DNA from: Watersipora subatra
Lineage: Eukaryota > Bryozoa > Gymnolaemata > Cheilostomatida > Watersiporidae
DNA: 64,000 nt
Reading direction: 5' to 3'
Assembly (NCBI RefSeq): GCF_963576615.1
Contig: NC_088711.1
Span: 5,270,001 to 5,334,000 of the forward strand
Position 1 is the stretch's first letter; each line of letters starts with the position of its first letter. A program made the position numbers and the translations under genes. Of this stretch, positions 23,846 to 60,241 are shown in pieces. The notes under the pieces were generated by a model. The model searched no databases, had not been told where the DNA came from, and saw only the letters and a list, made by a program, of their open reading frames with translations.

Positions 23846-26800
23846 TTACAACATAACAAAGAATATCAAACATACCAATTGTCGCACTTTATTAGTCGTG
23901 TTTTGAATCGACTGGAAGTGGTCTCGACTGTTCGCACCTCCATGTTTCTTTACCTTGACCTTCTTTCGCTACAACAAGCTCTCAGTGCTGATGAACCAAT
24001 AAAAGATCAGACACAGCATACCATGAGACGACCCTGACTTTTCTAAGGTCTTTTTTTCTAATCAACTGAGCAAAACTGCTTTGATCAAAGCTTACTCCTA
24101 GTTTCGCTAGCCAACAACGCAAGGGCTAGATTGATATCCCAACCCGACTTGGGAGCAGTTAGGTTACAGTCATAGCCTATAGCGAGTGGCCTAACTTCGT
24201 GTACAGCAGACATGTCTACCCTAAATGTATGACATATGCATGTCAACGATTCCACTTCACTGAACAGGAATATTTGTGTCAATGTTTTCACCCTTGAAAT
24301 AAACAATAATCTGCTTTAACATAAAATCTAGCCCAATGATGACAGAATAATCCGAAACATCAGTATTTCATTGTAGAATAAAAAGCTGCAACGACCTCAA
24401 CACTTTCGCTACGGTAGGAGCGGCTATAATAGCTCGTGGTAGCATAATTTAGAAACCAGTCAAGAAGTAAATTTAAATTTACGAGTCAAGAAGTAAATAA
24501 ATTTGCCTAAAGCGTTGTAATAAGATAGCTAAGATGTTGGGTTACCATTTCATTAAATAGTCTAGGTATTATCCTTTTGACTCACAACAAACTATTGCAG
24601 CTGTGAATCTGTTATTTGCGGTTGTAATCGATGGAAAGAAAACATCTTCGCTATGACCTAAACACATTTATTATAGACGATATTATAGATTCTGAATACT
24701 CCAAACACTCTTCAGACCACAGAATCTCATTTTAATTTGAATAAAACCACAAACAAAGTACAGTCATACCTCGACATACAAACACTAACAAAGTACAGTC
24801 ATACCTCGACATACGAACACTAACAAAGTACAGTCTTACCTCGACATACAAACACTAACAAAGTACAGTCATACCTCGACATACAAACACTAACAAAGTA
24901 CAGTCATACCTCGACATACGAATACTAACGAAGTACAGTCATACCTCGACATACGCACACTAACAAAGTACAGTCATACCTCGACATACAAACACTAACA
25001 AAGTACAGTCATACTTCGACATACAAACACTAACAAAGTACAGTCTTACCTCGATATACAAACACTAACAAAGTACCGTCATACCTCGACATACAAACAC
25101 TAACAAAGTACAGTCATACCTCGACATACGAATACTAATGAAGTACAGTCATACCTCGACATACGCACACTAACAAAGTACAGTCATACCTCGACATACA
25201 AACACTAACAAAGTACAGTCATACCTCGACATACAAACACTAACAAAGTACAGTCATACCTCGACATACAAAAACTAACAAAGTACAGTCATACCTCGAC
25301 ATACAAACACTAACAAAGTACAGTCATACCTCGACATACGAACACTAACCAAGTAGTCATACCTCGACATACAAACACTAACGAAGTACAGTCATACCTC
25401 GACATACAAGCACTAACAAAGTACAGTCATACCAAAGATTACTCTCAAGATTCATAAAGTCCATCTCAAAGATTACTCGGATCTCAAGGAAGGAACTTGC
25501 TTGAACGTCAGCTCACGCATGTTGAAGCATGCAGAGTTTTTCGCATGTTGAAGCACTTGTATGTAGAGGTACTTGTATGTAGAGGTACTTGTATGTAGAA
25601 GCACTTGTATGTAGAGGTGTGACTGTGCTGTAATTCTCTTAGTAGCAATACTGTTTGCACTATTTGTTCACTAATACTATTTTTCAATACAAACCTGTTT
25701 GCTGGCATCACCTAATGCTACCACTAGTCTGTGACAATTACTATGGCATGAATATCTTTTTGACTTACCCTTCCTTCATCTATTTCCTGTTCATAGCCAT
25801 CATACCAACTGTTCCTATAACTGGTGGTTAGCTTCTCCCGCTCTACTTCTCTATTCACCTCAGGCTTGCTTCCATCCCAGGTGGATACTAGAAAGCAATA
25901 GCACTTCTGCATACATCATCAGCAATTCCACAAATAGATCTTGGTGACCTTTCAGACCTTGGTGACCAATCAAAGTACCTTGGTTATTCAAAATGAAAAT
26001 TTGTTAGTCGAAATAGCTGTCTGAGTGCATTAAGGTTTAAAATGGATAGTTTCTAGACGTTTAAACACAAATCAGATGAGCTCAAAACGATCAAAAAGAG
26101 CTCAGGTCGTTACCAGATCCTGTTTAAAAATGCTGCTATTCTAGCAGGTTGTGCACACAGCTTTGAAACCTACCAGTGCTTACATACATTCACTACTCCT
26201 GGTCCTAGTACTACCAATTATATTCACCTTACCTCCTGTTCCAAGACCATTTATTTTAGACGCATGTCTTTCCATTAAAAAACTGATGTTGCTTTCTTTT
26301 CTGCCGTCCCATGGTGACACAGAGTTGCTTACTCTCTGAAATGCAGCATCATCTTTATCAACTGATGCGTTCCAGACCTTCACAACAGCTGAAACCGAAC
26401 AACAAAGTATCTATAAATCACCAAGATCAGATTACTGGAAAAGTTTAAATCAAAAATTAACATTCTATATTCTCGCTTTGAAGGTATACTAAGGACAACT
26501 ATTCAGAGTTGTTAAACTAAGCTCTTCCGTAAGAAGTCAGTTTAACGCGTCTTTCAGAAGCAATAAAATGCCAAGTTATATATATGCTACTCAAGGGACC
26601 AGCTGAAATAATTATATGCTCAGCGTGACAGAACTCACCAGGTGAGCTCTAGCTACATGACAGAACTCACCAGGTGAGCTCTAGCTACATGACAGAACTC
26701 ATCGGGTGAGCTCTAGCTACATGACAGAACTCTCAGGTGAGCTCTAGCTACGAACAAACTGAAACCAAAAGTTGTTGGTCTATCTGATTAGATGGACACA

Positions 26801-32800: not shown

Positions 32801-35800
32801 AGTTGTTCTCCCAACTGTCTGGTACTAAAAAGCCTCAACCGAGAGAACAACCCTTCCATGGTAGTCCAACAGATGAAAAGCATTTTAATAAGGTTGGGAT
32901 TTGAAAATAACAAATACTATAATATCAATGTAAGAATGATGTACCTCCCTGTGGGACATATATGGTCGTAAATTCAGTGTGGACGAGAAATCAATATGAC
33001 GACTGACTTTGCCACCCATAAGCCGATGGTAGTCGAATCTTTTCAGGTGCAAGGTAAGCACTTTAGGTGCTCTGTGTATCGTAAACTGTTTCAACGCTCT
33101 AACCTTTTTTTGGCACCTGCAGCAGGCAGCGAGTGCCTTATAAACATGGTGAAGAATATGTCAACAAAAGGAACAATCACAACCAAGAGATCTGCTTGAT
33201 ACACTTCTAAGATGAGACAGTAACAAAAATATCTACACGAGAGTGGACAACTCCTAAACCCCGAGTCGAGTACAATGGTCATTAACTTTTTCACTACCAT
33301 GATGCAGCTTTAGCAGGCTTCAAACAAATTGTTTCTGATTAGTGAGTAGTTAATTTATGTTTCTTATCATATCTGTACATAAATGAAATGAAGGGACACA
33401 ATTATCTGCATCAGAGTCGTATAGTTTCACAAAAGTCCCACGGCCAACGGACGCGTATATGGGAGCTCGTTCGTTTCCAAACAAACAGGCCACACCTACT
33501 ATTTTTATATAGGTTATAATGGAGAGGTCGCAACATTAACCAACAAAAATTACTCCCATTGGCAGTCGCTTTAAAATTGATTATTGTATTATACACCATT
33601 TGAAAGAGGACTAAAATTCCCTACAAGAAACTACAAATAATTTTTCTGTAAAAAAGTAAAGTAAATGCAAAGAAGTGAGATGTTTAGAGTGAGGTAAGAA
33701 AATTCCATTAGAGAACAGTATGTCGATAGGGTTTGCTTGGAAACAAACGCTTTTGTTTCCGGTTTTTGACACGGGACTATGTGAAGCTATATGGCTCTGA
33801 TCTGCATGTGTTGAGCCTATAAAGATATGTTTACAGCCCATCCAGAGTGTAGATTCGCTCTGCAAAAACTTCTTTTTGATCGCGATATCTTCTTAGCAAT
33901 GACCAGTCGTATCAGACGCGTTACAGCTACAAATTTTAGATATATAGACACTGGGTGATTTTTATTGAACAATGCTATTACTGACTGAGAATAGTTATTT
34001 TTATCAGTAGTAATATGCCATAAACTAATAATATTAATAAATCCTCCAACTCAGACATGATCATGGTTTTTCAAAAATGTGTTCATTCTCATTTTGCAAC
34101 GCGTTTGCGGTGTTTTTCCTGGCATCAGCTGATGTAATATTTTATGCTGATTAATTTGGTATCAAAAGATTTTTATAGACTGGATGGTTCAAAAGTTATG
34201 ACGATGTATAATATTGCTAAATATTAGGTTTTACTGAATACGTAATTACGTTACGATGAAGAAATTAACTTGGTAGAAAGAGTTACAGGAGTATGATGAG
34301 TAGAGGAACAATGATACTTAACAATTATACAGAAACAATGATAACCAACCTTGAGCATCTGTAGGCATTGTCCACGTCCAATATCTCTGGCTGCACAAAC
34401 TTTTGCAGTCCACGCTCCACACTGTTGACACCCTACAAACAGATATGGATGTATGTGAGAGGACTCACGCAAACCCTTCACTGGCTGTCTCCAAATTTTA
34501 CAAGCTGCAAAGCTTTAGATGTTAGATTTGTACTGAAGAGAAATCCCAGAACCCTATAGGGCTATGAGAGTAGTCCGAAGTTGTTGTCAATTACTCATAG
34601 CAGTTGGTTTTCGACAGTCAACTGACCTTGATATCGAGACTGACATCGAGTACAGGGTCATATGTCCTAGAGGTTGTCTTGCACTGCATGCATTTCACCT
34701 GACTCCGCAAGTAGCCCCCAAATACTTGGTGAACAAATGTCGTCTCTTTGCTCAGTTTCTCCAAGCTATAACCATAGACTAGACTGTTCGAAGTTGATCA
34801 TAACAGTGTTTGTACCAAAGAGGTTTTCTTATGGATAGACCTTAGCTGGGTTAGGCCTTTAGGTCGACTGGATGGAATGGATAGACCTTAGCTGGTTTAG
34901 GCCATTAGGTCGACTGGATGGAATGGATAGACCTTGGCTGGGTTAGGCCATTAAGTCGACTGGATGGAATGGATAGATCTTAGCGGGGTTAGGCTCTTAG
35001 GTCGACTGGATGGAAAGGATAGACCTTAGCTGGGTTAGGCCCTTAGGTCGGCTGGATGGAATGGATAGACCTTAGCTGGGTTAGGCCATTAAGTCGACTG
35101 GATGGAATGGATAGACCTTAGCTGGGTTAGGCCCTTAGGTCGACTGGATGGAATGGATAGACCTTAGCTGGATTAGGCCCTTAGGTCGACTGGATGGAAT
35201 GGATAGACCTTAACTGGTTTAGGCCATTAGGTCGACTGGATGGAATTGGTAGACCTTAGCCGGGTTAAGCCATTAGGTCGACTGGATGGAATGGATAGAC
35301 CTTAGCTGGGTTAGGCCCTTAGGTCGACTAGATGGGAGGATTCAGTTTCTAACATATAATTTAGTTTTGTAAATGGTATTAAATAATGTAGTTTTAACGC
35401 TATATGCAACTTCCTGAAGTATTTATCATTAGGTTTATGAGCTTAGGAATGAATTGAACAAAAAAGACCGTACTTTTACAATTTGTTCAATTTTCAACAG
35501 TTTCAACACAAGAAGCAAACCTCAGAATATCTAGTTTTGACTGTATTAGATAAGGCATTTGAGTACAGGAAATGAATGCCTAATTTAAAACAAGTGCAAG
35601 ACACTAGGATCACCTGGGATTCTGGCCGGTCAGGCATGATTTCTGCATGGCATCCACAATGTATCTCAGAAACTCATGCGCATCCTCCTGTCTGCCCCAG
35701 CGCAAGTGCTTTGCTATCACTGTAACAAGACACAACATTAATATCCTAAAAACTCAACAATTAGGCATGCCTATTGGGTTAACAAGAAAAGTCCAAGTCA

Positions 35801-38800
35801 AACGAGGTATACATAAGCCCGGAAATGTTGCATTAAAGTTTATATGCAGGTAGAAGTCAATCAATAGATTTCAGCATACAAGTCGACCCTGCGTACAAGT
35901 GGAGGTCTAAGCTTTGGTTTAAAAATCCTGGTTTTGACATGTACCTGTCGTATAAGGCGACCCTTTCTCTGGCTTAAATCGCTTGATTGCTAAAAGTTCA
36001 GTCGGCATCAGAGGTGAGCGATGCATAACTGAAAAAATGGCATCCAAAAACGCCGCCAGCAATGATGTCCATGTTTTTTTGGTGTCGCCGGCAATACAAC
36101 CATTGACAAAAGATCGAGAGAATGCAGTTCTGGTGAAAAGCATAGGGCACGAAAAACGGCACTTCAACATCGTATTGGCCCGCCTGGACAATAGAACAAA
36201 ACTGCCATCCCTGACAATACGCATTTTAGAGAAAAGCAGTCCTGCGAGACCGACTTCTGGCAAGAATCATGTACAAGAAGAAGGACGGATAGATGAGAGT
36301 GGATGTGTCAAACAAATTACCCAAGTATGGGATTGTAGGTAGATACTACGAAGCATTAAATTTGAAAAACACGTTATTTCAGAAGAGAATCCTAGTGACG
36401 ACAATTTGAATGGTGAAGAATAGAATTTTGTGTTTGATCCATCTCATGTTGACTAGGATTACTAGTGTTGTACTATTTTATAAAGAAATCCCTTTATGTC
36501 ACACCATGTAATTTTGATTTGTGGTGGTTTTTAAAAGTTGAATTTTATTAGAATTTGTGTAATAAAAAAAACATGAGAGCTGTAAAAATCGAGGATGAAT
36601 TTTTGAGCTTGTAATTTTGTGTCAAATCTTTGACTTATACGCCGAAATTTACGGTTATAGGTATTTCATCATATGATAAGAGATTCGTAAAAACCTGAAA
36701 AAACACAAAAATGCAAGATATAAAATACTATGTAAACCAAATTGGAAAGTGCGGGTCACTCATGAGAGAGCCTACTAAGAAAGAATGTTGCTATCAGCCT
36801 ACTGTGAGACAGTATCACTATTAGCTTCCTAAGATAGGTATTTGACTTACATTTGAGTTTCTGTAGGACATTGAGAGGTTTCAGCACTCCACCATGCTGC
36901 ACCAAGCACTTGCTCAACAGGTGCTCCAACTCACACAGCATGCAGAACCCATTACAGCGACCTGGAAAAGATTAACTCAAGTGGTTAACAATACAAGCTG
37001 CACGTACCAAGCAAGGTCACCCAATATCTACAACCTGCAAATATTGACACGTAGCACTGATTAGTAAATACCATCCTGTTTGCTAAAATATGAGAACAAC
37101 ACTTTTCAAGTTGAAAAATGACAATCATTTATTTACATTAGGATAGAAACAAATAGGCGTTTGCCAATATTTAGCAAATAATGAATCCGTTATTTTGATT
37201 TCTGCTAAGAGAAATATTACAAATAGATGTTTCCCATGCGATGAGACATGCAAGAGGTGGTGACTTTTGAAGTGTTTCAAAATGCTGCAACATCAACATA
37301 ACATGTTTTGCAACCATTACAAATGCACACGATATATATATATATATATGAGACTCTTTAGTAATATGCAATGGAAGTAGTCGGCATTATAAGAGAGTGC
37401 TAACATCAGCATTGGACATTCATGCATAATATTTAATAAAAACAAACAAGACTATGTAAATGTTCAATAAGAAGAATCGTGAGTGTTAGGGTGTTAGGGC
37501 ATCTGTCCATCGAACTATATACAGTCAAACATGGATAACTCGTCCACGGATAGCTCGAACACATGGTTAATTCGAACATTTCCTTTGGTCCGTTCCCACG
37601 TAATGATAAATTGCTATAGATAACTCGAACTCAACACTGTTAATTCGAACTGTTTTTTTGCCCAACGGCTACCGAAACGGTTGTTATCGCTTTAGAAAAT
37701 CACTTTATTCAAAGCCATAGAGGTAAACTTCATCTTTTCGTAATTCATAAGCATCGTTATTACCACCATCGGCAAAATATTTTTGTCAACGACTTTTCTA
37801 AAAGTTTGGTGAAATTTGATTTATACTGCGATACGATGAATAGCACGGGTTAGCCGGGTCACGCGCGCAAGGATTTTCGCCACGCACATACAAAACAAAA
37901 ATCGCATGTTGTTTTGTATGTGCGTGGCGAAATTCCTTGAGTACGTGACCCGGCTAGCCCGTGATGAATAGTTTTCCGACGTTGATTCTGTGTTGAATCA
38001 ACGTCGGAATGTTGAATGTTTAAAACGTCTTAAAATTGTTGTAATACGTTGTCTGAGCTACAAAAAACTAATCATCGTTTGACCTAAACACAGAACACAT
38101 GTGTACATTCAATAAGTATCTATTAAAAAAGCGTGAGTGATATAGAATGTACCGTAAAACCTCGTAAAACTTCTAATTGAACTGCCTCGGAGTGTTGCTC
38201 TTAACGAATCCCAGGTAAAGTAAGGTAATCTGCATAAACTTCAAGAAAAAACGGCAAAATTGATCGTGGGTAAAACCCCAAAAGAATAAAATGTCTTTTC
38301 TTTTGAGCATTTCAACAACCATCAAGTTTTGCCAATGTCAATCTGAAAAACGTCCTGGCGATAACATCACCTCAAACAACAAACCAATCTCAAGTGATAG
38401 AAAAATCTCTATACTTTTTCATGAAAACGTTTTAAACTTTACATTAGAAGCATTTAATTTGAAACAAGCCATTTGTGCTTTTGATTTATATTATAGTTTG
38501 TATATGCACATGTATTTACTAATAAATAAGTAAATATATGGACTTGTGACAGTGCTCTGATAACTTGAACGCTCTGATAATTCGAACACTTTTGCTCGGT
38601 CCCTTGAAGTTCGAGTTATTCATGTTTGACTGTATATAGAAATAGATTATAGTTTTGGGTCTCATAAGCGCTTTTGCAAATACATAGACTTGGCTGGTGC
38701 GAAGCCTTCTTTAAAAAAACTAATGGCCACTACAAAACTTGTAATGGCCACTACAAAACTTGTAATGGCCACTACGAAACTTGTAATGGCCACTACAAAA

Positions 38801-40983
38801 CTTGTAATGGCCACTACAAAACTTGTAATGGCCACTACAAAACTTGTAATGGTCACTACGAAACTTGTAATGGCCACTACGAAACTTGTAATGGTCACTA
38901 CGAAACTTGTAATGGCCACTACGAAAGTTCTAATGGCCACTACGAAACTTGTAATGGCCACTACGAAACTTCTAATGGCCACCACGAAACTTGTAATGGC
39001 CACTACGAAACTTCTAATGGCCACTACGAAAGTTCTAATGGCCACTACGAAACTCCTAATGGCCACTACGAAACTTCTAATGGCCACTACGAAACTTGTA
39101 ATGGCCACTACGAAACTTGTAATGGCCACCACGAAACTTGTAATGGCCACTACGAAACTTGTAATGGCCACTACGAAACTTGTAATGGCCACTACGAAAC
39201 TTGTAATGGCCACTACGAAACTTGTAATGGCCACCACGAAACTTCTAATGGCCGCTACGAAACTTCTAACGGCCGCTACGAAACTTCTAACGGCCGCTAC
39301 GAAACTTCTAATGGCCACTACGAAACTCCTAATGGTCACTACGAAACTCCTAATGGCCACTACGAAACTTGTAATGGCCACTACGAAACTCCTAATGGCC
39401 ACTACGAAACTTGTAATGGTCACTACGAAACTTGTAATGGCCACCACGAAACTTCTAATGGCCGCTACGAAACTTCTAACGGCCGCTACGAAACTTCTAA
39501 CGGCCGCTACGAAACTTCTAATGGCCACCACGAAACTTCTAATGGCCACCACGAAACTTGTAATGGCCACTACGAAACTTGTAATGGCCACTACGAAACT
39601 TGTAATGGCCACCACAAAACTTGTAATGGCCACTACGAAACTTGTAATGGCCACTACGAAACTTGTAATGGCCACTACGAAACTTCTAATGGCCACTACG
39701 AAACTTGTAATGGCCACCACGAAACTTCTAATGGCCGCTACGAAACTTCTAACGGCCACCACGAAACTTCTAATGGCCACTACGAAACTTGTAATGGCCA
39801 CCACGAAACTTGTAATGGCCACTACGAAACTTGTAATGGCCACTACAAAACTTCTAATGGCCGCTACGAAACTTCTAATGGCCACTACGAAACTTCTAAT
39901 GGCCACTACGAAACTTGTAATGGCCACTACGAAACTTCTAATGGCCACTACGAAACTTTGAAATATAAAAACCTAAATCTAACGAAGCAGTAGCAAAAAA
40001 TTCAAGTTCTGTCAGACTCCATTGAATTCTTTTATAACAGAAAATCATAGCAGTTTTTTATTTACTGAAACCAAAAAAATCATTTGACAAAAGAAACTTA
40101 AAAACTACAAAACTCATTCAAATACTGAAGCTATGTGGACTCATTTCAGTTTCACTGGAAGTCTATTTGTTTTATATTTTATGGGCATCATATAAAGGTT
40201 ATAACCTTGACACATTTTAGCAACGCTCTGATTGTGCATATATTAAAAATTGACTTTTTAAAACGAGCATGATAAAACACGCAAAATGACCTCCATTTTA
40301 CGTGTCTAAGTATTTAGACCGAATTTTGACTGTTACCGTGAACAACCTGATTACACCTAAACACTGAGAATGGCAGGAATAATAATTTAGTAATTACATT
40401 GGGTTTTGTGCTGGCCAGAGATAAGGTGACTGGCAAGGGGTGCTGTATAACCAAGGCACTGCAAAACGGAGTTGAGAAAGCAGGTATTGCCGAGATTTGT
40501 AAACCCTCCACCAACCCTTCTGGGTGCTGACCAGGCCAGTTGGACTTCATCAGGCGAGTACAGAACAATTCTAGGAGTTGGTAATCCATCACTCTTCTGT
40601 TTCTTGCTATCTTTTTGTCCAGCACTAGAATTGTCAGTCTTCCCCACATCTACAATGTTATGATTGGTTAAATATTGCACCAGGTACCGAGTAAAACAGA
40701 AATAGGTAACTAAACAAATGTTCGGAGTTTTCTCACCGGAACTTTCCCTTTTGAAGTTTTGTGTTAAACAGATATATTTATCCTTGAGGTTCTGCAACAT
40801 GCTGTTGGCATCCTTTTCTGCTTTGACAAAGGTAATCGTGGCCTTTTCCAGAAGAGCCCTTTTAGCTGATGATGTAACAACACTGCTGACATCTTTTGTA
40901 CCTGCCACACTTTTCTTGCTCGCTGCCAAAGACTTAGTTAGACTGTCGGCTATGCAGTCTTGTAGTCCGTTTGCAGCAGGCAT
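23846..40983 (-). CDS. USP36: USP36/USP42-type ubiquitin carboxyl-terminal hydrolase
   Basis: Fifteen coding exons, each with GT-AG borders and matching phase: 40983-40737, 40649-40398, 36961-36851, 35719-35614, 34765-34627, 34432-34350, 33116-32945, 31636-31511, 31330-31192, 30746-30175, 29413-29333, 27717-26835, 26388-26233, 25887-25769, 23968-23846. Total 3309 nt, about 1102 residues, close to the family length. The catalytic domain spans about 131-433: Cys box NLGNTCFLN (Cys ~139), zinc CX2C pairs KCMQCK and [19 protein letters not shown], His box NSGHYYCY (His ~393) and CMNDSH. A 10-residue repeat region follows in exon 10, then lysine-rich nucleolar-type stretches ([12 protein letters not shown]) and a conserved tail (WDG motifs, [18 protein letters not shown]). 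USP36 removes ubiquitin from nucleolar proteins and histones. The start ATG is on an exon with an acceptor at 41001, so the 5' UTR is spliced. Confidence 0.93.
24758..25428. repeat. 35-bp minisatellite resembling a transposon terminus
   Basis: About nineteen copies of a 35-bp unit, acagtcatacctcgacatac followed by aaacactaacaaagt, in the last USP intron. The core CAGTCATACCTCGACATACGAA resembles the terminal inverted repeats of Tigger/pogo elements. Copies differ at only a few positions. Confidence 0.93.
25546..25620. repeat. ~17-bp tandem repeat
   Basis: Four to five copies of acttgtatgtagaggt in the last intron of the USP gene. Confidence 0.8.
26629..26752. repeat. 32-bp minisatellite with palindromic core
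   Basis: Four copies of catgacagaactcaccaggt followed by gagctctagcta. Each contains the palindrome CTCACCAGGTGAG. It is intronic, starting about 240 bp downstream of exon 26388-26233's acceptor on the plus map. Confidence 0.88.
27836..27955. repeat. 32-bp tandem repeat in USP intron
   Basis: About four copies of tgcctgtgtattgctgaaaa followed by atgcactatcat. Confidence 0.85.
28432..28570. repeat. 18-bp minisatellite in USP intron
   Basis: About eight copies of gagtaggcaattgcaaga in the intron 27718-29332. The minus-strand frame reading LQLPTL repeats is an artefact of the array. Confidence 0.92.
29915..29945. repeat. CA-rich microsatellite
   Basis: Interrupted cacacgcacacac repeats within a USP gene intron. 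Confidence 0.85.
30200..30640 (-). repeat. Coding 30-bp minisatellite inside USP exon 10
   Basis: About thirteen copies of a 30-bp unit translate in the USP frame as [10 protein letters not shown] and the variants [10 protein letters not shown] and [10 protein letters not shown]. It stays in frame along its length, and one copy carries a single extra codon. It sits after the catalytic domain in what should be a disordered linker rich in Pro, Ser, Thr and Lys. Flanking exon ends are phase-consistent with exons 9 and 11, so this array is translated. Confidence 0.85.
32116..32153. repeat. 16-bp-arm hairpin in USP intron
   Basis: tagctcataattaaaa pairs perfectly with ttttaattatgagcta across a six-base loop. 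Confidence 0.85.
34829..35336. repeat. 46-bp minisatellite in USP intron
   Basis: Eleven copies of gatagaccttagctgggtta followed by ggcccttaggtcgactggatggaatg. It lies between the exons at 34765 and 35614. Confidence 0.93.
35864..36656 (+). pseudogene. Tigger/pogo-type transposon remnant
   Basis: Frame 35983-36342 (+) encodes 119 residues matching the start of a Tigger/jerky-type DDE transposase domain ([12 protein letters not shown], then RTKLPSL and RIDESG). The surrounding 0.8 kb has related ends: TTTCAGCATACAAGTCGACC on the left, and on the right the complement of AAATTTCGGCGTATAAGTCA. Those read as diverged terminal inverted repeats. The fragment lacks the DNA-binding N-terminus and most of the catalytic domain, so it is an internally deleted, inactive copy. 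It lies in a USP intron, opposite in direction to the host gene. Confidence 0.7.
37338..37350. repeat. TA microsatellite
   Basis: Short (TA)n tract in the USP intron between the exons at 36961 and 40398. Confidence 0.8.
37844..37963. mobile_element. hAT-type MITE nested in the pogo-like element
   Basis: A 120-bp near-palindrome with arms of about 53 bp starting CACGGGTTAGCCGGGTCACG. It is flanked by a perfect 8-bp direct repeat ATGAATAG (37836-37843 and 37964-37971). The 8-bp duplication is typical of hAT transposition. It interrupts the 37522-38632 element and is therefore younger. Confidence 0.85.
37974..38009. repeat. Perfect 15-bp-arm hairpin
   Basis: ttccgacgttgattc pairs perfectly with gaatcaacgtcggaa over a 6-base loop. 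It starts 3 bp after the MITE's right-hand duplication. Confidence 0.85.
38718..39958. repeat. 21-bp minisatellite, about 59 copies
   Basis: Unit taatggccactacgaaacttg with recurring variants (cttct, ccacc, ccgctac, aaaac). Because 21 is a multiple of three and the unit lacks stops in several frames, open frames of 420-440 codons appear on both strands (NGHYETC heptads on plus, SFVVAIT heptads on minus). The array lies inside a USP intron, so these frames are not considered genes. Higher-order blocks are visible: a ccgctacgaaacttctaacgg run recurs at about 39247-39320, 39457-39530 and 39730-39770. Confidence 0.95.
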
Positions 40984-41142
40984 TGCATCTAGTTTCTTAT
41001 GCTGCAATGAAACAAAATAGCTTACTATGTAATACTGATAGTCGGTTGCCTTCAGTTCTAGAAGTCATTAATACGAAGCCTTAAACATGAGTGGTTGAAA
41101 AGTTTAAAAAAGTTCCTTTGCAGATAGCTTACTATTATTTAA

Positions 41143-42021
41143 AGGTTGACTTGCAACAAAATTCACATTACAGTTATTTGATATCAAAAGATCCACCATG
41201 TCTTACTCTGTTGTGTTGTAGGTGCCAAATATGTGGAAATGTGATTGCAAGCTCTTAAAAGCTCAAAAACGAACAGTTAATCGCAGCCACACGAGACCGC
41301 CGTAGTTTGGATTCGCTTTCCAAAACGGCTAAAATGTGACGTAGTTGTGGTAGATGGTTTCTGTTTACACTTTCATGCAACCTTATTCATCGAAATATTT
41401 TCACAAATATACTTCACGCATTCAATAAAACTATGTCTACTGTTCTTACGCGTCTGTTTTATCAACATTGTAATGCTGTCACTTTTAGCACTGATATCTT
41501 ATAACTTACCGTAAAAAATCGTTAAACTTTTTAACCTTAGCTCGAAGGAGTACATATCATTGTCTGATAATCATGACGAGCCTGTTGGTCACCTGTGATA
41601 ATCGAAAAGTGCTGCAAAAATTATTTGCAAATTATTGGGTCACATGATCAGATTACGACTTGACGATTGAATAATGCCGAAACAAAACTGTAAAGTAGCG
41701 AGCATCTATATTTGATACGGGGTCTTCGGTGAAACTCGAAGTGTTTGTCATAAACTAGTACTACAATAAGTTTTATATTGAGCTTTGTATTGGCCTTTGA
41801 ATTCACGTAAGAACATACGTGACAAGACGATAACCAAATTTCGTGGCTACGTCATCGAAATAAAGAGATTCCAATCTACGGCGGCTTTCGTTTTGGAGCT
41901 TTTAAGAGCTTGTAATCACATTTTCACATATTTGGCACTTACAACACAACAGAGTAAGACATGGTGAATCTTTTGATACCAAATAACTGTATATAATGTG
42001 AATTTTGTTGCAAGTCATCCT
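41143..42021. mobile_element. TTAA-flanked fold-back transposon (Kolobok/piggyBac-like)
   Basis: Long inverted arms of about 200 bp: left AGGTTGACTTGCAACAAAAT, right the complement of AGGATGACTTGCAACAAAAT, each next to TTAA (41139-41142 and 42022-42025). The arms also share accatgtcttactctgttgt and agctcttaaaagctc. The 879-bp element has no transposase frame. The TTAA duplication fits Kolobok or piggyBac; the AGG end argues more for a Kolobok-type MITE. It lies about 140 bp upstream of the USP exon that holds the start codon, probably in a 5' UTR intron. Confidence 0.75.
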
Positions 42022-42025
42022 TTAA

Positions 42026-43919: not shown

Positions 43920-44609
43920 GTTGGCAGATCTAGTCCTTAAGATTTATGGATGTCCTTCAGACCCGTATGGGATGCGCAGATGTTGGAGATGGAGTGGTGT
44001 AGCAGCATAGCCATCAGTATCGGTAATTCTGCCAGGCTCTGCAACAATGATAGCAGGCTGGTTATATCGGTATGGCTGGTTTTCAGTTCACCCATTATAG
44101 GACTGGAGTGCAACATTGCCGTAAACTACATCAGTAGTCCCTCGGTCAGGCAAATACAAAGTGTCTGGGGTTTAGCTCGGGTAGATCTTTAGCATGGGGT
44201 CACTGATCATGCATTAAGCAGTTTGGCTGTTGACAGGTCTTTTTGCAGCTGACCACCTGAATGTAGTTAGGTAAAATAGGTATCAGATGTTGGGGAAGCC
44301 ATTGTCGAATGGTGCCACATGGCAATTGAGCAACATGTGGTTAATGTCCTTGGATTTGTTCAATAAACCTTTTATGGTTTAAACTGCTCATTCAGCTTCA
44401 CTGTTTGCGTTTGATTATTTTGATGAAAACGTTACGAGTGTGGTCCATTTTTGTCTAAAATTTGTGGTCCATCATCCGATACAAAATTAAACAGCCAGGT
44501 GTTGTGAAGAATTTGGTCAGATCACTTATGAAAGCTTTTGATGTTGGCTCTTCCATCTTTGTTACCTCAATCCATCTAGCAAAATGGTTGAAAAATTTTA
44601 GGAGGATAC
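43920..44609 (-). pseudogene. Gypsy integrase remnant, downstream half
   Basis: Minus-strand translation across several frames shows an integrase core (HFARWIEVTKMEEPTSKA, then a DDGPQF-like site with frame breaks). A C-terminal region with NHMLLNCHVAPF- and DLPELNPRHFV-like stretches follows, containing multiple stops. This is the distal part of the older minus-strand Gypsy copy. It is separated from the rest at 48386 by the plus-strand LTR element. The start of this piece and the sequence at 48386 share GATAC. Confidence 0.75.
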
Positions 44610-44844
44610 TGTTGTATATGCAGGTGTCTCTTGTGCGTCTGACTATGTTGCAGGAACTTGGGCTAAGAAAGCCAGATAGGCTTTGGGAGACAAAGCCTCT
44701 CACACAGGCTTGCAGGATTATGTAGCTTTCTCAACTTATTGATAAAGCTGAGGAATAGCTGACTAGATATGGAGGAGGGTATATAAGGGGGCGTTCTTCT
44801 TCCTGCTACAGGGGAGTGAAGTTGTGGTGAGTAAATACACAACA
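44610..44844 (+). repeat. 5' LTR
   Basis: 235 bp, TGTTG...CAACA. It matches the 3' LTR over its full length with scattered substitutions. Confidence 0.92.
44780..44787 (+). promoter_or_regulatory. TATA box in the 5' LTR
   Basis: TATATAAG lies before a G-rich stretch, about 60 bp before the LTR end, a plausible U3/R promoter. The 3' LTR has TGTATAAG at the equivalent place, so the motif differs between the two copies. Confidence 0.5.
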
Positions 44845-44857
44845 TGGCGTCGTAGGC
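44845..44857 (+). promoter_or_regulatory. Primer-binding site
   Basis: TGGCGTCGTAGGC begins immediately after the 5' LTR. TGG complements a tRNA CCA end. The tRNA species was not identified. Confidence 0.6.
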
Positions 44858-44879
44858 AAACTTGGTTTGCGGAGGACAG

Positions 44880-45025
44880 CGATAGTGTTGCCAGTGTTTA
44901 GTGCTCAAATTGTCGCATGGACATTTGAGAGTGTTGTAAGGAGAAGAATACAGTGTTAAGTGTTCAGTGCTCAAATCGTCACGTGGACATTCGAAAGTAG
45001 TGTAAGGAGAAGTGATAGTGTTCAG
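44880..45025. repeat. Two-copy repeat in the LTR element leader
   Basis: A block of about 65-70 bp (tgttcagtgctcaaat, tggacatt, gtgtaaggagaag) occurs twice between the primer-binding site and gag. Confidence 0.7.
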
Positions 45026-45133
45026 TGATTTTGCTACAGGATTAATTACCTATTCGCTTCAGGAAGAGCTAGGGTAAGTGTTTTGATTACTTTTGTGCAG
45101 TAATCGAGATAGCGGCCTTCGTTATTTTTAACG

Positions 45134-45778
45134 ATGGCCGCATTCAGGTTTAATGTCAATGACTTTCCCAGGTTAGTTACTAACTTTAGTGATGCAGCTA
45201 ATTCTTACAAGTCTTGGCTGTCAGAATTTAATTTATGTGTAAAAGTTACCACTCTACAAATGGGTAAGGCTGAAGGAGGTCAGGTTAACTTTAGCGGTCG
45301 CATTAAACTGCTTGCACTTTTGAGTGCTATAGGTAAGGACGGCTGTGAAGCTTTACAGTCTGTAGGATTCAGTTTAGAATCTCATGATTCTACTTATGAG
45401 CAGGCCATAGATCGTCTAAATAGAATTTATGGTGGAGAGGAAACAATATATGTTAAGGTTTTGAAATTCGTTACTTGTTTTCAAACATGTGACTAAAATG
45501 AAAGGGATTATATGTTAAGGGTTGAGAAACTCAGCAGGAATTCAAACTTTGATGTTGATGATAACAGGAAAGATTTTGCTTTTGCGATAGCTGTTAATGG
45601 ACTCGGAGAGTCAACGCTACATAGGCAGCTGATGCAGGAAAGGGATTTAGATTGGGCAAGGTTATCTGACACTCTAAGAGCTAGACAACTTGCTCGTGAT
45701 TCAGAAGCAGTACTTAAAGATGCCAAGACTAAAGCTAGTGGTACTAAAGGTTTCAGAAGTAGCGGCCATTGTTTCTAG
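45134..45778 (+). pseudogene. Broken gag of the LTR element
   Basis: An ATG at 45134 opens 120 codons of gag-like sequence (MAAFRFNVNDFPRL at the start) ending in TAA at 45494-45496. The same frame resumes at once and stays open to TAG at 45776-45778, with a charged helical region (ERDLDWARLSDTLRARQLAR). A single premature stop therefore splits capsid. Sequence from 45779 to about 45970 has stops in the relevant frames, so the join to the downstream nucleocapsid is also frame-disrupted. Confidence 0.75.
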
Positions 45779-45971
45779 GCAATCTAAAAATAAAACTAGA
45801 AGCATTAGTCATTACTATAGTAAAGGTGCAGAAGTTCATAGAACTTCTTAGAAGGAATGCGAGGACCATTATGATAAAAGGTCTAAGAACATGTACCCCA
45901 AGTCTGGGTGTGAAACTTCAGGTAATAAGTCTACTAGGCATGAATGTAGAAGCCGACATACAAACTCTATT

Positions 45972-46670
45972 TGATCTTTTAGGTATTCTAGTGCTGATAG
46001 ACATAATTGGCGCACTAGGTCTCAGGGTGAACTTTTACCAAGGAGTGATAAATGTTACAACTGTGGTAGTCGGCAGCACCAGCTTCGCAGTTGCCTTGAT
46101 GCTAAGTGCTTTGCTTGCAATAGGAAAGGCCATACTAGTATTGACTGTGCTAGGAATGGTTCTGAAGGCTCTCAGAAACAGGATCTTAACAGGTATCGCT
46201 ATGATAGGAGTAGCAGTAGCGGAAGTGACAGGAATATGGGCAGAGGTTCAAGTAGAGACAGGGACTACACATGTTCCCGTCATCTTAGTAGGAGTGTGAG
46301 GTTTTCTTCTTTTAGTCCTAAATGGCTAGATGATAAGATAGTCAGAACTTTAAAGGTAAATGATATGGCGGTTGATTTTGCGCTCGATACAGGTGCTGAA
46401 GTTTCAACAGTAACAGAACAAACAGCCAACAGGTTAGGTTTACAGTTAACAGCGCCATCAACTGTTTTGACTGCAGTAAATGGTTCTGAGTTAAAGGTAG
46501 TAGGCAAAGAGGAAGTTCAGTTAAAAAGTAGACACAGATCTATGGTCACTCAAGTTCATGTTATAAAAGGATTAAACAAAAACTTTTTGGGCATAAATGA
46601 GTTGAAGCAGCTGAAATTATTAGCTGTTTTAAATGCATTGTGTATGAAAGGTTTTAAGCCAGTTATATAG
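45972..46670 (+). pseudogene. Nucleocapsid zinc knuckles and retropepsin-type protease
   Basis: This open frame differs from gag's and has no stop from about 45972. It contains two CX2CX4HX4C zinc knuckles starting at 46053, then an Arg/Ser-rich linker. A retroviral-type aspartic protease follows with active-site motif DTGAEVSTV (around 46385) and the later LGINELKQLKL. It ends at TAG (46668-46670), and the next frame continues in phase after that TAG. The active-site motif looks intact, but expression would need a shift from the broken gag. Confidence 0.8.
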
Positions 46671-47753
46671 TTGCCTCCTAGACCTGTTACTGCTGGTGCA
46701 CGTTGGCACCTTTCAGATGATGGCAAGTTGCAAAACTTGACAAATATGTCTAATAGAAAAGATAAAAGTCCCGGAGATAGGAAGGCCAGGAAGCAAGGTC
46801 AACCAGGAAAATTATCAATGAGGGATGGTACCAGCTCAGAAAAAGCTGTTCCACAAACAAAGGTGCATGGTCGTAACACCAGCTACGCAGAGGCAGCTCA
46901 GGGTAAGCCACAACCTTGCCGGAATCAGGTGAGCAGTTTCTTTTATGAGGTTCAGTCTGGTTTTATGTCACATGAGGTTATCCTACAGTGTAAACATGTC
47001 TTTGCTGAACACTGGTCCCGGATAGAGGAGGAGTACAGGACGGCTATTGCGGCCGTAGAAGTTGACGAGCGCCAGTTCCAGCCGGAAATCGAGAATGACC
47101 GGGAATTCAAGGCTGCCTTGACAAACTTGGCTACCCTGAAAGACAAGGTTCTGAAGGACGCTAGACTGCCTGCTCCCCAGGCTAAGGTAAAATCACCTAC
47201 AGACAACCAGCTGTCTGTAGGTGACTTTACCTTAGCCTGGGGAGCAGGCAGTCTAGCGTCCTTCAGAACCTTGTCTTTCAGGGTAGCCAAGTTTGTCAAG
47301 GCAGCCTTGAATTCCCAAAAAGACACCTGCAGACAACCAGCTGTCTGTAGGAGGGGAGGCCCCTTTGGCTCCCCACACTCTCATCAGGGAGGTGCCGAAG
47401 AGAATGCTTTGTCAGTAACCAGTTCTAGCCAAAAGGCTAGTAAGGCTCAGTCAAAACCACCTACAGGCAACCAGCTGTCTGTCACCGGGGAGGCCCACTT
47501 GGCTCCCCACACCTCGAAACAGGGAAGTGTAGAGGTTCCTGTCTCGACAGTAACCTGTACTAGCCAAGAGGCTCGCCATGCCAAAACAGGCGGCATGGTA
47601 ACCCTGGGAAAGTCTTCTGGGGTTAAAGCGGTCGATAAGGCAGAGGCCCTGATGGAGGGTATGTCAGGCACTGAGGAGGTGTTTGGGATATACCCTATAT
47701 GTGATTCAGATGACTCGATGATGTCAGTTAAAGAAGGTAACCCTGATACGTAG
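46671..47753 (+). CDS. Unrecognised ORF3 in place of pol
   Basis: This frame of about 360 codons follows the protease TAG in the same phase and begins at a TTG, not an ATG, so it may be read only by stop readthrough or may be a relic. It has no polymerase, RNase H or integrase motif. The first third is basic and low-complexity (NRKDKSPGDRKARKQG). A middle segment is helical and acidic (EEYRTAIAAVEVDERQ). The rest is built on a recurring module, DNQLSVGGEAPLAPHT-like, seen three times, once out of phase. A long palindrome (47101-47316) sits in the middle. Function unknown; it may be a captured host sequence or an accessory protein. Confidence 0.55.
   Translation: MPPRPVTAGARWHLSDDGKLQNLTNMSNRKDKSPGDRKARKQGQPGKLSMRDGTSSEKAVPQTKVHGRNTSYAEAAQGKPQPCRNQVSSFFYEVQSGFMSHEVILQCKHVFAEHWSRIEEEYRTAIAAVEVDERQFQPEIENDREFKAALTNLATLKDKVLKDARLPAPQAKVKSPTDNQLSVGDFTLAWGAGSLASFRTLSFRVAKFVKAALNSQKDTCRQPAVCRRGGPFGSPHSHQGGAEENALSVTSSSQKASKAQSKPPTGNQLSVTGEAHLAPHTSKQGSVEVPVSTVTCTSQEARHAKTGGMVTLGKSSGVKAVDKAEALMEGMSGTEEVFGIYPICDSDDSMMSVKEGNPDT
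47101..47316. repeat. Near-perfect 216-bp palindrome in ORF3
   Basis: Arms of about 105 bp run from GGGAATTCAAGGCTGCCTTG to its exact complement, with one or two mismatches, around a ~6-base centre (aaccag). Both strands read the same peptide (EFKAALTNLATLKDK). The transcript could fold into a very long hairpin. Confidence 0.93.
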
Positions 47754-48133
47754 TCACGACATGGGAGCAGGTGAAAGCAAGAACAGGTATGTGCTCAGAA
47801 CTTGCAGGTTTGAGCTGAAGGTGATAGGTTAGACTTGCGACAGCCACTATGGCTTGGGGAGTAAGAATGGGAGAGGATGACTCCACCCATACAGGTAAGG
47901 CCACTTTATTTTAGTATTGGTTAACATATGGTTCACAGGCTACTCTCATGCTTATGTACAATTGCTAAGCTCCCGTTTAACACATCGGCGAGCTCATGAT
48001 GATGCAGGCTTTATTAGAGTACCAGAGGATAATATATATGCATGTCAGACACAAAGCTTGTTGTCTCCCAACATGATTGGTGGTTAAACCTATGATTGAA
48101 CCCCAAAAGTTACAGGTGCTATGTTCAGGCTTC

Positions 48134-48148
48134 AAAGAAAAAAAAGGG
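48134..48148 (+). promoter_or_regulatory. Polypurine tract
   Basis: AAAGAAAAAAAAGGG ends two bases before the 3' LTR and is the likely plus-strand priming site. Confidence 0.75.
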
Positions 48149-48150
48149 CA

Positions 48151-48385
48151 TGTTGTATACGCAGGTGTCTCTTGTGCGTCTGACTATGTTACAGGAACTT
48201 GGGCTAAGAAAGCCAGATAGGCTTTGGGAGGCAAAGCCTCTCACACAGGCTTGTAGGATTATGTAGCTTTCTCAGCTTATTGATAAAGCTAAGGAATAGC
48301 TGACTAGATATGGAGAAGGGTGTATAAGGGGGCAGTCTTCTTCCTGCTACAGGAGAGTGAAGTTGTGGTGAGTGAATACACAACA
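48151..48385 (+). repeat. 3' LTR
   Basis: 235 bp, TGTTG...CAACA, followed by the duplicated GATAC. It has about twelve substitutions relative to the 5' LTR. Confidence 0.92.
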
Positions 48386-50230
48386 GATACCGGTACAGCT
48401 TAATGAAATCCATCGTTAGTCGTTTCCATGGTTTCCCTGTAAAGAAGATTGAGCTAAGGTTTCTACCGGTGTTGGTAGCATTTCTTACAGTTATTCACCA
48501 TAATTGATATCTCTAGAATCATACCGAGCTACCAGAATCGTGTCTGGTTCTTGCTTTATACTTAGTTATGCCGAGGTGGCCTTCATGGATGATTTGTAAC
48601 ATCTCTAGCTAGAATCCTGTAGGAGTCACTACTCCGTCTTTGTGAAGAACTTTGCTAGTTGATTGAGATCATTAAGCCAGAATTCTGCTGCGATGTTGGG
48701 AAGTTAACAATAGCAGCTGTCTTCTTATGATCTGCATGAATACCAACACTGTTTGTTATGTGGCCTAAGAACTAGAAAGATGTGACTCCAGAGCTACACT
48801 CAATTCTGCTCAGTGTTAGACCAGCATCAGGTATGCGCTGCAGAACAGCTTTTAGTCCTAGATCATGTTTCTGGAGATTGTTTCCATGGCCTGCAGTAAA
48901 ATGTCATGTCATGTTTACAGCAGGCCATGCCATCTCTTTTTTGCCCTCTAGGCAAAAAGTAAGTTAGGCATGCTTCTCTGGCAGATGTTCTGTGTTGAGG
49001 AGTTGCCAAATGCGTTATTTTCTTGCATGTGTTAGAAATTTCATCAAGAGTCAATATGATGGATCTAGTGGTAGCTGCCACAATCTGGTGTTGGTACCAA
49101 CCGGTTGAACAGTCTAATCTGGCCCAGTTTAGCCAGACTCTCATTTACAAAGCTCATAGCGTGTACCAGTTTCTTAACAGCAGCATGCAGATAATAAAGG
49201 TCAGCACATACTCGAACGAAGCCATCTGGTTTTGGCGCTACAACCATGCTGTGACACAGTCTGTGGATTTTCGAATAGGCAAGATTACACCTAGGTTAAC
49301 AATTTCTTTCAGAGCATTTCTCTGAAAGAACTTGTTATCATATTTAAACCATACCGTATGGTACTCCATACCCTAAAACTGTACCATACCCAATACCATT
49401 TGTTGTATTGGGTTTGGTACGGTTCCAAGTATGTAGACAGATATAGGTGCATCGCTTTCTCATAACGTGGTCTTGTAGGCATAATCTTTGCCTGCTCCAA
49501 GTAAGCACTGTGAAGGATGAAGAGTACTGGAGGTAGTCAGTTTCAGTGTGAGTAAGAGTATCAACAGTACAAGTCAGGAGCTGTAGATGTGAGCAGGCTG
49601 CTTGGCTAAGTAGGATACAAAATTGTTGGTCTACCGCATATACAGTTATACGCCAGTTTTGTTTTTTTGTGCATCCTTTTGGCGTAAATGCAGCTGAGGC
49701 AGGAGATGTATTGGTTGCTGGTCTTTTCAATTTATCAGTGGTTGGCTTTAGTGTTATATTAGACAGTGTTGCTCCATGGAGGACAGAATTGTTGCATCTG
49801 CCCTTGAGTCTGGCACACAAGTCAGTGTGTGTGAGTTTATTACTAGTTCAACAGTCCATTTGTCAATGGTTGCTAATGAATCAATTGTTAGCTCTCTAGC
49901 GAATAAGGTAGTTGTTGCTTCTGCCTCTTTCTCAGTTGTTATCTCATGGTTTATTACCTCAAGAGGTTTTCTGTTAGGATTGGCATACATAAGCAAGTAT
50001 TCCCTTTGTCGCAGTAGTTACAGTCAAAATGTTTTGCCAAGCTATTTTCTCGTGAATGTGAGCTTTTCCATTCTAGGGATGATTAGAGGGTTTGCTAGAG
50101 TCATGTGTTGGCTTGCTAGAGTAGTGGGTTCTGATTTAGGTTTAGTCTTGGCAATTGCAGCAACAGATTTAATGATGGAGTCTATAGTAAGAACATTAGT
50201 AAGCTCGTTTATGCTATTGTAGGTCACTTC
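48386..50230 (-). pseudogene. Old Gypsy pol remnant (protease, reverse transcriptase, integrase start)
   Basis: Read on the minus strand from 50230 down. A protease-like relic lies near 49850-49760 (DSRADATILS where DTGADVT is usual). A linker follows, then a reverse transcriptase start near 49250-49070 (VVAPKPDGFVRVCADL, SFVNESLAKLGQ). The RT end is near 48790-48690 (FLGHI-, GIHADHKKTAAIVNFP), with stops. A further segment, HEGHLGITKYKARTR, is the zinc-binding start of integrase. RNase H and part of RT are missing, and many stops and frameshifts are present. It continues at 44609 beyond the nested element. Confidence 0.8.
49385..49421. repeat. Hairpin inside the Gypsy remnant
   Basis: taccatacccaatac faces gtattgggtttggta with one mismatch. 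Flanking TACCGTA/TACGGT motifs suggest a small inserted inverted-repeat element (about 49355-49430). Confidence 0.6.
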
Positions 50231-58352: not shown

Positions 58353-59600
58353 TTAGCCTTGGTTCAAAAAGCCTGAAGATACATCATCTTCAAGAGGCAG
58401 TTCTTGATTTGATGTGTCATCTCCGCTACAAACAGACAGTTTGAGATGTACCTCTTCGACACCGTTACTAACAGGCAGTGTTATATCTGATGTTTCACCG
58501 CCATCACAAGCGGGTAGTTCCAGGTTTGATGCAGATCTAGACGAGATATTTGTGGTTGCTGTGTCTGGCGCTCTCAGGGCTCTCTTGCTAAAGCTTGCGG
58601 TGAAGCGTTTTGACTTGTTTTTTCGGCGTGACTTGCAACACAGGAAGTCTATGAAAGCTTCTCTGAACGTGGTAGAAGAGATCGTGTAGAGTAGGGGGTT
58701 CATGCAGGAATTGGCGTATGCAAGAGAGTTGCAACAGACCAGCAGCAAGACGCTTCCCCTTGAAAAAGGGTACATACCAAGTTCGCTCAAAACTAGTATA
58801 GTATGCAAAGGCAGCCAGCATATTATGAAAACGACAACAACGATTATCACCATTACTGTTACTCTTTTTGTAATTTTTTTTGCCGACGATTTAGACCCAG
58901 CTGACATTGGTTGACTCACAAGAGAGGCTATAAGTACGCTATAAAGAGCTGCTATAACTACAACTGGGAGCATAAATCCAAAGACAAAGTAAGAAAAGTG
59001 GAAAGTTCGCTTTGCTGGCCCATCTTGTTCCTTGGGAAGACAAGTTTTTCTTATTGTGTCATTACCAAAGTAGTATTCGTGTTCACCAAAAAAGTACAAG
59101 GCTGGTATATTAGAGAGAAGCACAACGACCCACATTATGACTATCGCTATGATGGTAGTGCGAGTCTTATTATGCCCCCTGAGGCGCATTGCGAATACTA
59201 TGGCAAGACATCTGTCCAGAGACATGAAGACTAAAGTGTATACGCTGGCCCACGCGCACACGTAGGCCATATAGTTGTATATGCTACACCACGCCTCTCC
59301 AAATATCCATACTGGGGTGGCGTATTTCACAGCAGTGAATGGTACACATATGATAACAAACAGGAGATCTGCTATAGCGAGATTTAACACTAAATAGTTG
59401 GTCGAAGTTTTCATGCTTGGGTTGAATATGATGACAAGAATGACAAGTGTGTTCCCGAAGAAGCCGATTATAGCAATGAAAGTGAAGACAACAACAATAA
59501 CCGTGGCTACTGTTGCATCAAAGTTGTCTGCTCCTGGAGCTGTTCCACCTTCGGTATAGTTTTTAACGAGAGTCATAAAATAGCTAGTTGTGTTCTGCAT
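58353..59600 (-). CDS. Rhodopsin-family neuropeptide GPCR, allatostatin-A/galanin receptor type
   Basis: 415 residues from the ATG at 59600. The frame extends upstream, but an acceptor (TTTCTATTGCAG ending 59631) marks the exon edge, so the start lies on a second or later exon. The N-terminus has N-glycosylation sites (NTT, NYT). Seven membrane segments: TM1 ~30-59 with GNTLVILV, TM2 ~69-91 with NLAIADLLF, TM3 ~104-126 with Cys 105 (disulfide partner near 188 in loop 2). Then SLDRC at TM3's end, TM6 with CWLPLH, and TM7 with NSCMNPLLY. CC at 321-322 may be palmitoylated. A Ser/Thr-rich tail follows. Best match is the allatostatin-A/galanin/kisspeptin group, which couples peptide signals to G proteins. 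DRC replaces the usual DRY. Confidence 0.85.
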   Translation of the reverse strand: MQNTTSYFMTLVKNYTEGGTAPGADNFDATVATVIVVVFTFIAIIGFFGNTLVILVIIFNPSMKTSTNYLVLNLAIADLLFVIICVPFTAVKYATPVWIFGEAWCSIYNYMAYVCAWASVYTLVFMSLDRCLAIVFAMRLRGHNKTRTTIIAIVIMWVVVLLSNIPALYFFGEHEYYFGNDTIRKTCLPKEQDGPAKRTFHFSYFVFGFMLPVVVIAALYSVLIASLVSQPMSAGSKSSAKKITKRVTVMVIIVVVVFIICWLPLHTILVLSELGMYPFSRGSVLLLVCCNSLAYANSCMNPLLYTISSTTFREAFIDFLCCKSRRKNKSKRFTASFSKRALRAPDTATTNISSRSASNLELPACDGGETSDITLPVSNGVEEVHLKLSVCSGDDTSNQELPLEDDVSSGFLNQG

Positions 59601-59636
59601 TCTGTCGAGACGAGTATTTCTCTGAATGTTCTGCAA

Positions 59637-60241
59637 TAGAAATACACAACTCAGAGGTTTGCTCTACAAGCTTGTAACCTATCCTTACCATAGTGAAAAA
59701 CATTTTGTGTGTAACTAACTGTATTAAGTAAACTTTAACAGAGTGTATTTCTTCGATGATTTCATTAATTGAATACGTATAGTAATACCGCTATGCCATA
59801 TCTTGCTTAGCCTCATTTCTCATTCATATGAGGCACGAGACCAAGCAGGACTCATGTCTTGCGTGGCCCCATGTCTGGCTTGGCTCTCAAGCTACAAGAA
59901 TTAGTACCAGTTGTAGAGTAGTTTACTGAGTAGCTCTATCGGTATAAGAAAAACTGTAGGCTGTAAAAGAGATCTGTCAAAAAATTACAAGAAGTAGTAT
60001 TGTCAATTTGTACCATCGTTACATTGACAGCTGGGTGTTGTAACTCCTCTCTATCATCAAATGATGCTTCAAGTGTCTGAGGGTTATCTGCCAACCTCGG
60101 TAACAATTGACTATATTAACACTCGCTGCAACATTTCAGCATAATATAAAAAATGCTGGACACTGTACTAGTAGTAGAATGGCTTACTCATAAAAGAACA
60201 TAAGCTAGATCCTGATTGACTAGTCAACATGGATTCACCTT
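59637..60241. other. 5' flank or intron of the GPCR gene
   Basis: Holds the intron upstream of the receptor's coding exon. No upstream coding exon was recognised. Confidence 0.45.

Follow-up and report, generated by a model that had tools for sequence, protein, structure and literature searches.

Ty3-like long terminal repeat (LTR) retrotransposons of the bryozoan Watersipora subatra appear to have shed the region from reverse transcriptase (RT) to integrase (IN) at least twice, keeping gag, the protease (PR) and an accessory gene, open reading frame (ORF) 3, which is read in the same frame as PR. The element considered here occupies positions 44610-48385 of a 64,000-nucleotide stretch of Watersipora subatra chromosome 4 (NC_088711.1, C4:5270001-5334000; "the window" denotes this whole stretch) and is very probably an old, degraded copy of a non-autonomous family of this kind, in which RT-IN and the CCHC knuckles of ORF3 were deleted and the remaining ORF3 was placed behind the protease. 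A preliminary description of the window had reported an LTR element whose pol was replaced by an unfamiliar frame of about 360 codons, in phase with the protease and carrying a module seen three times; the pol-less element and the phase of its frame were borne out, whereas the replacement and the module count were not.

The origin of the frame was traced through full-length relatives in the same genome. Locus L070 (C4:42055000-42062500) contains a gag ORF of 435 aa ending in TGA-CTA, followed in the same frame by a 1026-aa ORF encoding PR, RT, RNase H and IN, the order expected of an autonomous Ty3/gypsy element, and then by ORF3 (417 aa), which lies in a different frame from pol and has its first ATG 17 nt past the pol stop. 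Locus L069 (C5:21307500-21313500), broken in places, presents the order PR, RT, IN, ORF3. The Pfam profiles RVT_1, RNase H, rve, H2C2 and zf-CCHC were found in these two loci, and CCHC knuckles are present in the ORF3 of both (zf-CCHC, 4.9e-8). The genome holds young full-length relatives, the LTRs of one copy being 100% identical over 209 nt. The PR-RT-RNase H-IN order is absent from the window element, and no Pfam match to RT, RNase H or integrase was obtained in its frame or in 9 further ORFs of 46559-48183 on both strands, as the preliminary description had it. The frame and its parts are as follows.

46671-47750, plus strand: the 360-codon frame, a predicted truncated ORF3 preceded by a short pol stub, in the same phase as the protease, with its stop at 47751-47753
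46671-46745, plus strand: frame residues 1-25, probably what remains of the RT N-terminus after the deletion, from their by-eye likeness to the L070 and L081 pol after the protease
46863-47198, plus strand: helical (coiled-coil-like) ORF3 core, frame residues 65-176, 70% identical to L069 ORF3

The window frame shares 70% identity over 110 aa with the helix part of L069 ORF3 (68% in a separate comparison), 73% over 95 aa with L079 ORF3 and 29% over 93 aa with L070 ORF3. On these alignments it is recognized as homologous to ORF3, the accessory protein located after integrase in full-length relatives, and pol was therefore not swapped for a foreign gene but deleted, which brought the following gene forward. 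The residues that open the frame (LPPRPVTAGA) resemble by eye the RT start after the protease (LYSPRSIAAGL), and the knuckles that characterize the ORF3 family are absent from the window frame (no Pfam zf-CCHC match). The frame is longer than chance would give: 1000 dinucleotide shuffles, run separately on two regions, produced longest open stretches of 245 and 235 codons, against the 360 observed.

The preliminary description had also proposed that the frame could be a captured host transcript, lying between the protease and the polypurine tract. Profile searches of the frame against Pfam, PHROGs and NCBIfam were empty, a protein search at E 0.01 gave no match and the sole PDB match, a TRAP transporter subunit (E=0.019), was set aside as chance; this lack of matches is what such a host gene might present. 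However, the full-length elements of the same genome carry a homologue of the frame, ORF3, in the same order (PR, frame, 3' untranslated region), and ORF3 matches lie downstream of the protease at two typical distances among hand-picked pairs. Host capture is therefore extremely improbable and, for the frame itself, largely refuted, a stand-alone host copy of ORF3 not having been searched for. The same homology withdraws the suggestion that the accessory protein belongs exclusively to the non-autonomous family. An env-like gene, the envelope remnant of a retrovirus-like form, would suit the position of ORF3 after integrase, but is very improbable, considering that ORF3 carries CCHC knuckles and that no membrane segment or signal peptide was evident by eye, no program being used, in its translation. 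In addition, the sole confident feature predicted for a related ORF3 protein (P0001, modelled with an alignment of three ORF3 proteins) was a long helix at about residues 191-256, the rest being of low confidence. The ORF3 part of the window folded alone gave a predicted local distance difference test (pLDDT) value of 50, and this model was not used. A protein search with L070 ORF3 returned three proteins, two of them named Watersipora subatra (7994 candidates scored).

The deletion that brought ORF3 behind the protease seems to be shared by a family rather than confined to one locus. The frame and protease queries gave at least 155 and at least 152 matches in the host genome, respectively, and from those listed 37 pol-less loci were compared, namely 30 that carry the frame, counting the window element, and 7 that do not match its helix part or, in the case of L022, match only the last 20 residues of that part. 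These seven are L014, L015, L020, L022, L025, L027 and L028, of which L025, L027 and L028 are found on C2, no more than 90 kb apart. The PR/frame junction could be aligned in 34 of the 37 (27/30 with the frame and 7/7 of the others), three loci being without the junction stretch, among them L048, whose alignment entry was dropped as spurious. Since loci with other junctions would not align to the junction query, the junction is common to the alignable copies only. It is most simply explained by one deletion event inherited by the family. The view of the window element as one of a non-autonomous family with an accessory protein is thus sustained, and the arrangement is not a rearrangement unique to this copy. 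The codon between protease and frame is Leu in 17 copies, Gln in 7, Ser in 7, Met in 1 and Trp in 1, and TAG in the window element; the single TAG noted in the preliminary description is therefore private to the window copy, and PR and frame are read, by alignment, as a single reading frame in the family. The parts upstream of the frame are listed below.

45134-45775, plus strand: gag (capsid part), broken, with ORFs 45113-45493 and 45497-45775, matching the gag of pol-less and full-length relatives
45975-46667, plus strand: nucleocapsid with two CCHC knuckles (Pfam zf-CCHC, 2 stretches) and aspartic protease (gag-asp_proteas, 1.2e-9)
46323-46325, plus strand: TGG codon; at the aligned site the gag/pol stop TGA-CTA stands in 7 of 7 copies whose spacing is of pol length
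46668-46670, plus strand: TAG between protease and frame, found in 1 of 34 aligned distinct copies

The gag of the window copy is damaged by a TAA at 45494-45496 and by a shift of reading frame somewhere in the interval from about 45750 to 45975. A protein search with the protease frame at E 0.001 gave no match, and no relatives were found in viral contig scans and phage records. At the gag/pol boundary, TGA-CTA, a known readthrough context, was present in 7/7 copies with pol-length spacing; RT and IN profiles were seen in L069 and L070, the other five being assigned to the full-length class by the pol-length distance to ORF3. Among the pol-less loci, 5 of the 37 had no entry at this site and 22 of the 32 with an entry had a sense codon (8 TGG, 5 CGG and 9 CGA), the remainder comprising 2 TAG, 2 TGA, of which one lies in a shifted context, 3 other codons whose context is likewise shifted, and 3 gaps. 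It thus looks as if the window's pol-less family has dispensed with the gag/pol stop and, with TGA turned to sense in most copies with an entry, could encode a single Gag-PR-ORF3 polyprotein.

A second pol-less family was recognized when 40 protease and 39 ORF3 matches, chosen by hand as probable neighbours, were combined into same-strand pairs, so that the counts are not unbiased. The gap from PR to ORF3 exceeded 2 kb (pol length) in 18 cases, was below 1 kb in 20 and between these in 1, with 1 unpaired, and 17 of the 20 short gaps measured 267-295 nt, the rest being 133, 446 and -365. Two of these 20 were read, L080 (C4:30374300-30376700) and L081 (C4:14856900-14859300), with open fused frames of 594 and 613 codons that run from the protease through an RT stub to an ORF3 with knuckles, behind a retained TGA. 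The L080/L081 family represents a separate deletion in the L070 lineage, again joining ORF3 in frame to the protease. Two in-frame joins would arise by chance about 1 time in 9, and the in-frame recurrence by itself is therefore weak evidence.

The window element has the marks of an integrated LTR retrotransposon, with paired LTRs, a short target-site duplication (TSD), and a primer-binding-site-like stretch and a polypurine tract adjoining the LTRs, as listed here.

44605-44609, no strand: left target-site duplication GATAC, the same 5 bp as at 48386-48390
44610-44844, plus strand: 5' LTR, 235 bp (direct repeat D1)
44845-44858, plus strand: candidate primer-binding site starting TGG, directly 3' of the 5' LTR
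47751-48150, plus strand: stop codon and 3' untranslated region, with the polypurine tract at 48134-48150, matched in other copies
48151-48385, plus strand: 3' LTR (direct repeat)
48386-48390, no strand: right target-site duplication GATAC, the same as the left 5 bp

The candidate primer-binding site is one that we take to be tRNA-Ser-like. The two LTRs differ at 12 of 235 sites (95% identity), with a Kimura two-parameter distance (K2P) of 0.054, and at least 41 LTR matches were obtained in the host genome, where 40 of the 272 candidates were scored. The 5' leader (window 44893-45027) contains a 66-bp tandem duplication that other copies show too. When TSDs were checked in 8 two-LTR pol-less copies, 5 had perfect 5-bp duplications (window, C3:0.53M, C2:38.75M, C4:43.0M and C1:33.77M, the last two with an LTR end set by eye), 2 had one mismatch and 1 lacked the 5' LTR end, with LTR K2P values of 0.036-0.109 across the eight. 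The pol-less form accordingly inserted repeatedly, with its own target duplications, and it resembles TR-GAG-like non-autonomous elements in being Gag-coding, multicopy and devoid of RT and integrase with its own TSDs, the gag of the window copy itself being broken. Given the lack of RT and IN, the pol-less RNA would have to use the enzymes of relatives for copying and integration; it would be packaged in Gag particles, then reverse-copied and integrated by the RT and IN of full-length relatives. This mobilisation in trans is suggested by the lack of RT and IN together with the LTR start, TGTTGTATATGC, that the window element has in common with L070, in each case after a purine tract. The Gag-PR-ORF3 product that was kept may assist the RNA encoding it in cis, by analogy with the mouse intracisternal A-particle (IAP) 1-delta-1 element, and the window copy would have gained stops in gag and at the PR/ORF3 junction.

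In the full-length class, ORF3 is constrained, the ratio of nonsynonymous to synonymous substitution rates (dN/dS) being 0.28 for L070 vs L076 and likewise 0.28 for L080 ORF3 vs L070 ORF3, and the protease of this class gave 0.10 (9 pairs). Between the L080 and L081 fused frames the values were 0.22 for the protease, 1.79 for the stub and 0.49 for ORF3, with few changes. Within the window's family, for which the preliminary description had proposed a dN/dS comparison across copies, medians were 0.48 and 0.56 for the gag parts, 0.53 for the nucleocapsid, 0.54 for the protease, 0.44 for the ORF3 helix, 0.89 for the junction stub and 0.71 for the C-terminal part. The excess of changes at third positions, with codon-bootstrap intervals that are too narrow because the copies are related, was 1.55 (1.31-1.85) and 1.25 (0.97-1.58) for the gag parts, 1.08 (0.86-1.34) for the nucleocapsid, 1.22 (1.03-1.45) for the protease, 1.34 (1.10-1.59) for the ORF3 helix, 1.13 (1.00-1.27) for the C-terminal part and 0.91 (0.69-1.18) for the stub.

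Several results weigh against the account given here. Noncoding LTR and untranslated sequence read as codons gave median dN/dS values of 0.46-1.11 and neutral simulations gave 0.56-0.87, so that the neutral baseline of the method is itself below 1 and the case for selection on ORF3 in the window's family, including the helix value, is lowered to suggestive. At an E-value of 1e-5, neither the flanks of L069 nor L033 and L070 yielded a match to the window LTR. The 37 loci were drawn from the matches listed and some may be duplicates (L025, L027 and L028), and loci lacking the junction would fail to align to a junction-spanning query. Furthermore, the protease groups L069 with L070 (59%) and sets the window apart (48-50%), whereas ORF3 groups L069 with the window (70%) and sets L070 apart (29-33%); this disagreement on the nearest full-length kin means that the history includes recombination or unequal rates, and recombination between the lineages of L069, L070 and the window is possible.

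The overlap of the coding values with these controls is also what would be seen if the pol-less copies were decaying deletion products with functionless ORF3 and gag frames, the family having propagated solely as RNA that was packaged and copied in trans. This alternative, which we do not favour but regard as a real contender, agrees with the near-neutral stub and C-terminal part, with the LTR distances of the eight dated copies and with the seven loci lacking a helix match (or matching its last 20 residues only), whose ratios ranged over 0.34-1.05 with 3-18 pairs per region. Nevertheless, the third-position excess in the N-terminal gag part, protease and ORF3 helix, as opposed to the stub, speaks against it, as does the fact that two separate pol-less families each retained gag, PR and an ORF3 lying in frame with PR. 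Rather doubtful, in turn, is the fullest functional version, in which Gag-PR-ORF3 would be a selected cis-acting packaging polyprotein that leaves the enzymes to a host element, with ORF3 as a second nucleocapsid-like RNA-binding protein and its helix oligomerising.

Part of the window frame reflects damage to this one copy, which accounts for the module count, as follows.

47101-47205, plus strand: palindrome arm 1 (inverted repeat I1)
47212-47316, minus strand: palindrome arm 2, a fold-back copy of arm 1, private to the window copy
47317-47377, plus strand: first half of repeat unit 2, an out-of-frame reading (+1 frame)

Of the three modules claimed earlier, copies 1 and 3 are in frame, whereas copy 2 (NQLSV at 47335) is in the +1 frame with the palindrome before it; like the TAG, the three-fold module is thus partly damage private to the window copy. 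Over the 108 nt on either side of its centre the palindrome (47101-47316) is paired except at positions 1, 3 and 17, counted outwards, and from this near-perfect inverted repeat it follows that frame codons ~181-216 are the antisense of the preceding codons. Codons ~216-236 are repeat unit 2 read out of frame, until a 1-nt difference near 47378 restores the frame within that unit, so that ~56 of the 360 codons are not an ancestral reading. The inverted copy was found in none of the 23 other copies giving a result (24 were tried and L018 gave none); among these 23, two repeat cores at a spacing of 134-135 nt were present in 15, one core in 5 and other spacings in 3. The ratio pN/pS was computed for the repeat units, with a sample too small to use. 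The palindrome probably originated in the window copy only, through a template switch where the repeat forms a hairpin, and the core of repeat unit 2 folds as a 10-bp hairpin that suits a fold-back switch. Fold-back template switches have been described for DNA replication (PMC8794818, PMC7954356).

The element looks to be inserted inside an older minus-strand Ty3-like pol. The fragment at 49065-49295 had Ty3 RT as its top PDB match, a weak one (E=0.23), with no match in Pfam, and both sides of the insertion in the rejoined empty site presumably carry integrase-like words. Elsewhere in the window, a rhodopsin-family G-protein-coupled receptor is encoded by a single open frame of 436 aa on the minus strand (58356-59663; PF00001, 6.4e-55), and the start of a ubiquitin carboxyl-terminal hydrolase domain lies at 40390-41064, also minus (PF00443, 3e-7, profile positions 2-37 of 254). 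Inverted repeats of ~135 bp, 92% identical and ~610 nt apart (41139-41273 and 41887-42025), are possibly a DNA-transposon derivative. Tandem arrays were found at 38720-39958, 24741-25433, 34831-35335 and 13375-13893; the copies in the first are mostly at 21-bp multiples, with by-product open frames of 436-443 codons in three frames.

The set of proteins retained by a defective retroelement gives a hint of those whose action in cis is required, and two pol-less families keeping Gag, protease and a fused ORF3 point to ORF3 as a working particle part and not a passenger. Bryozoan retroelements are little described in the literature searched, in which a single paper combines the words Watersipora and retrotransposon. 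Among the titles and abstract openings listed, none described a pol-less LTR family whose frame joins Gag, protease and ORF3. The nearest counterparts share some of these traits. In TelKA2n, a non-autonomous LTR family of bdelloid rotifers, most of pol has likewise been lost and the ORF3 of its autonomous relative retained (PMC5408684), whereas the bryozoan family also keeps gag and protease, and its ORF3 is a knuckle/helix protein fused behind the protease. Mouse IAP 1-delta-1 likewise combines an internal deletion and a novel fusion ORF with non-autonomous propagation, but its 1.9-kb deletion takes part of gag and pol, and a cis action is reported for its fusion protein (PMC6466679); the bryozoan deletion takes RT-IN and fuses PR to ORF3. 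The TR-GAG elements of plants likewise have two LTRs, a Gag-coding interior and no RT or integrase, and some are mobile, although they are described as coding GAG alone, with no accessory ORF3 (PMC9784723). Extra ORFs after pol, shared between lineages and with coiled-coil types among them, are also carried by bdelloid LTR elements with GDSL, DEDDy, CC and TM ORF3s (PMC5408684); the bryozoan ORF3 differs in its CCHC knuckles, the words zinc and CCHC being absent from the main text of that paper.
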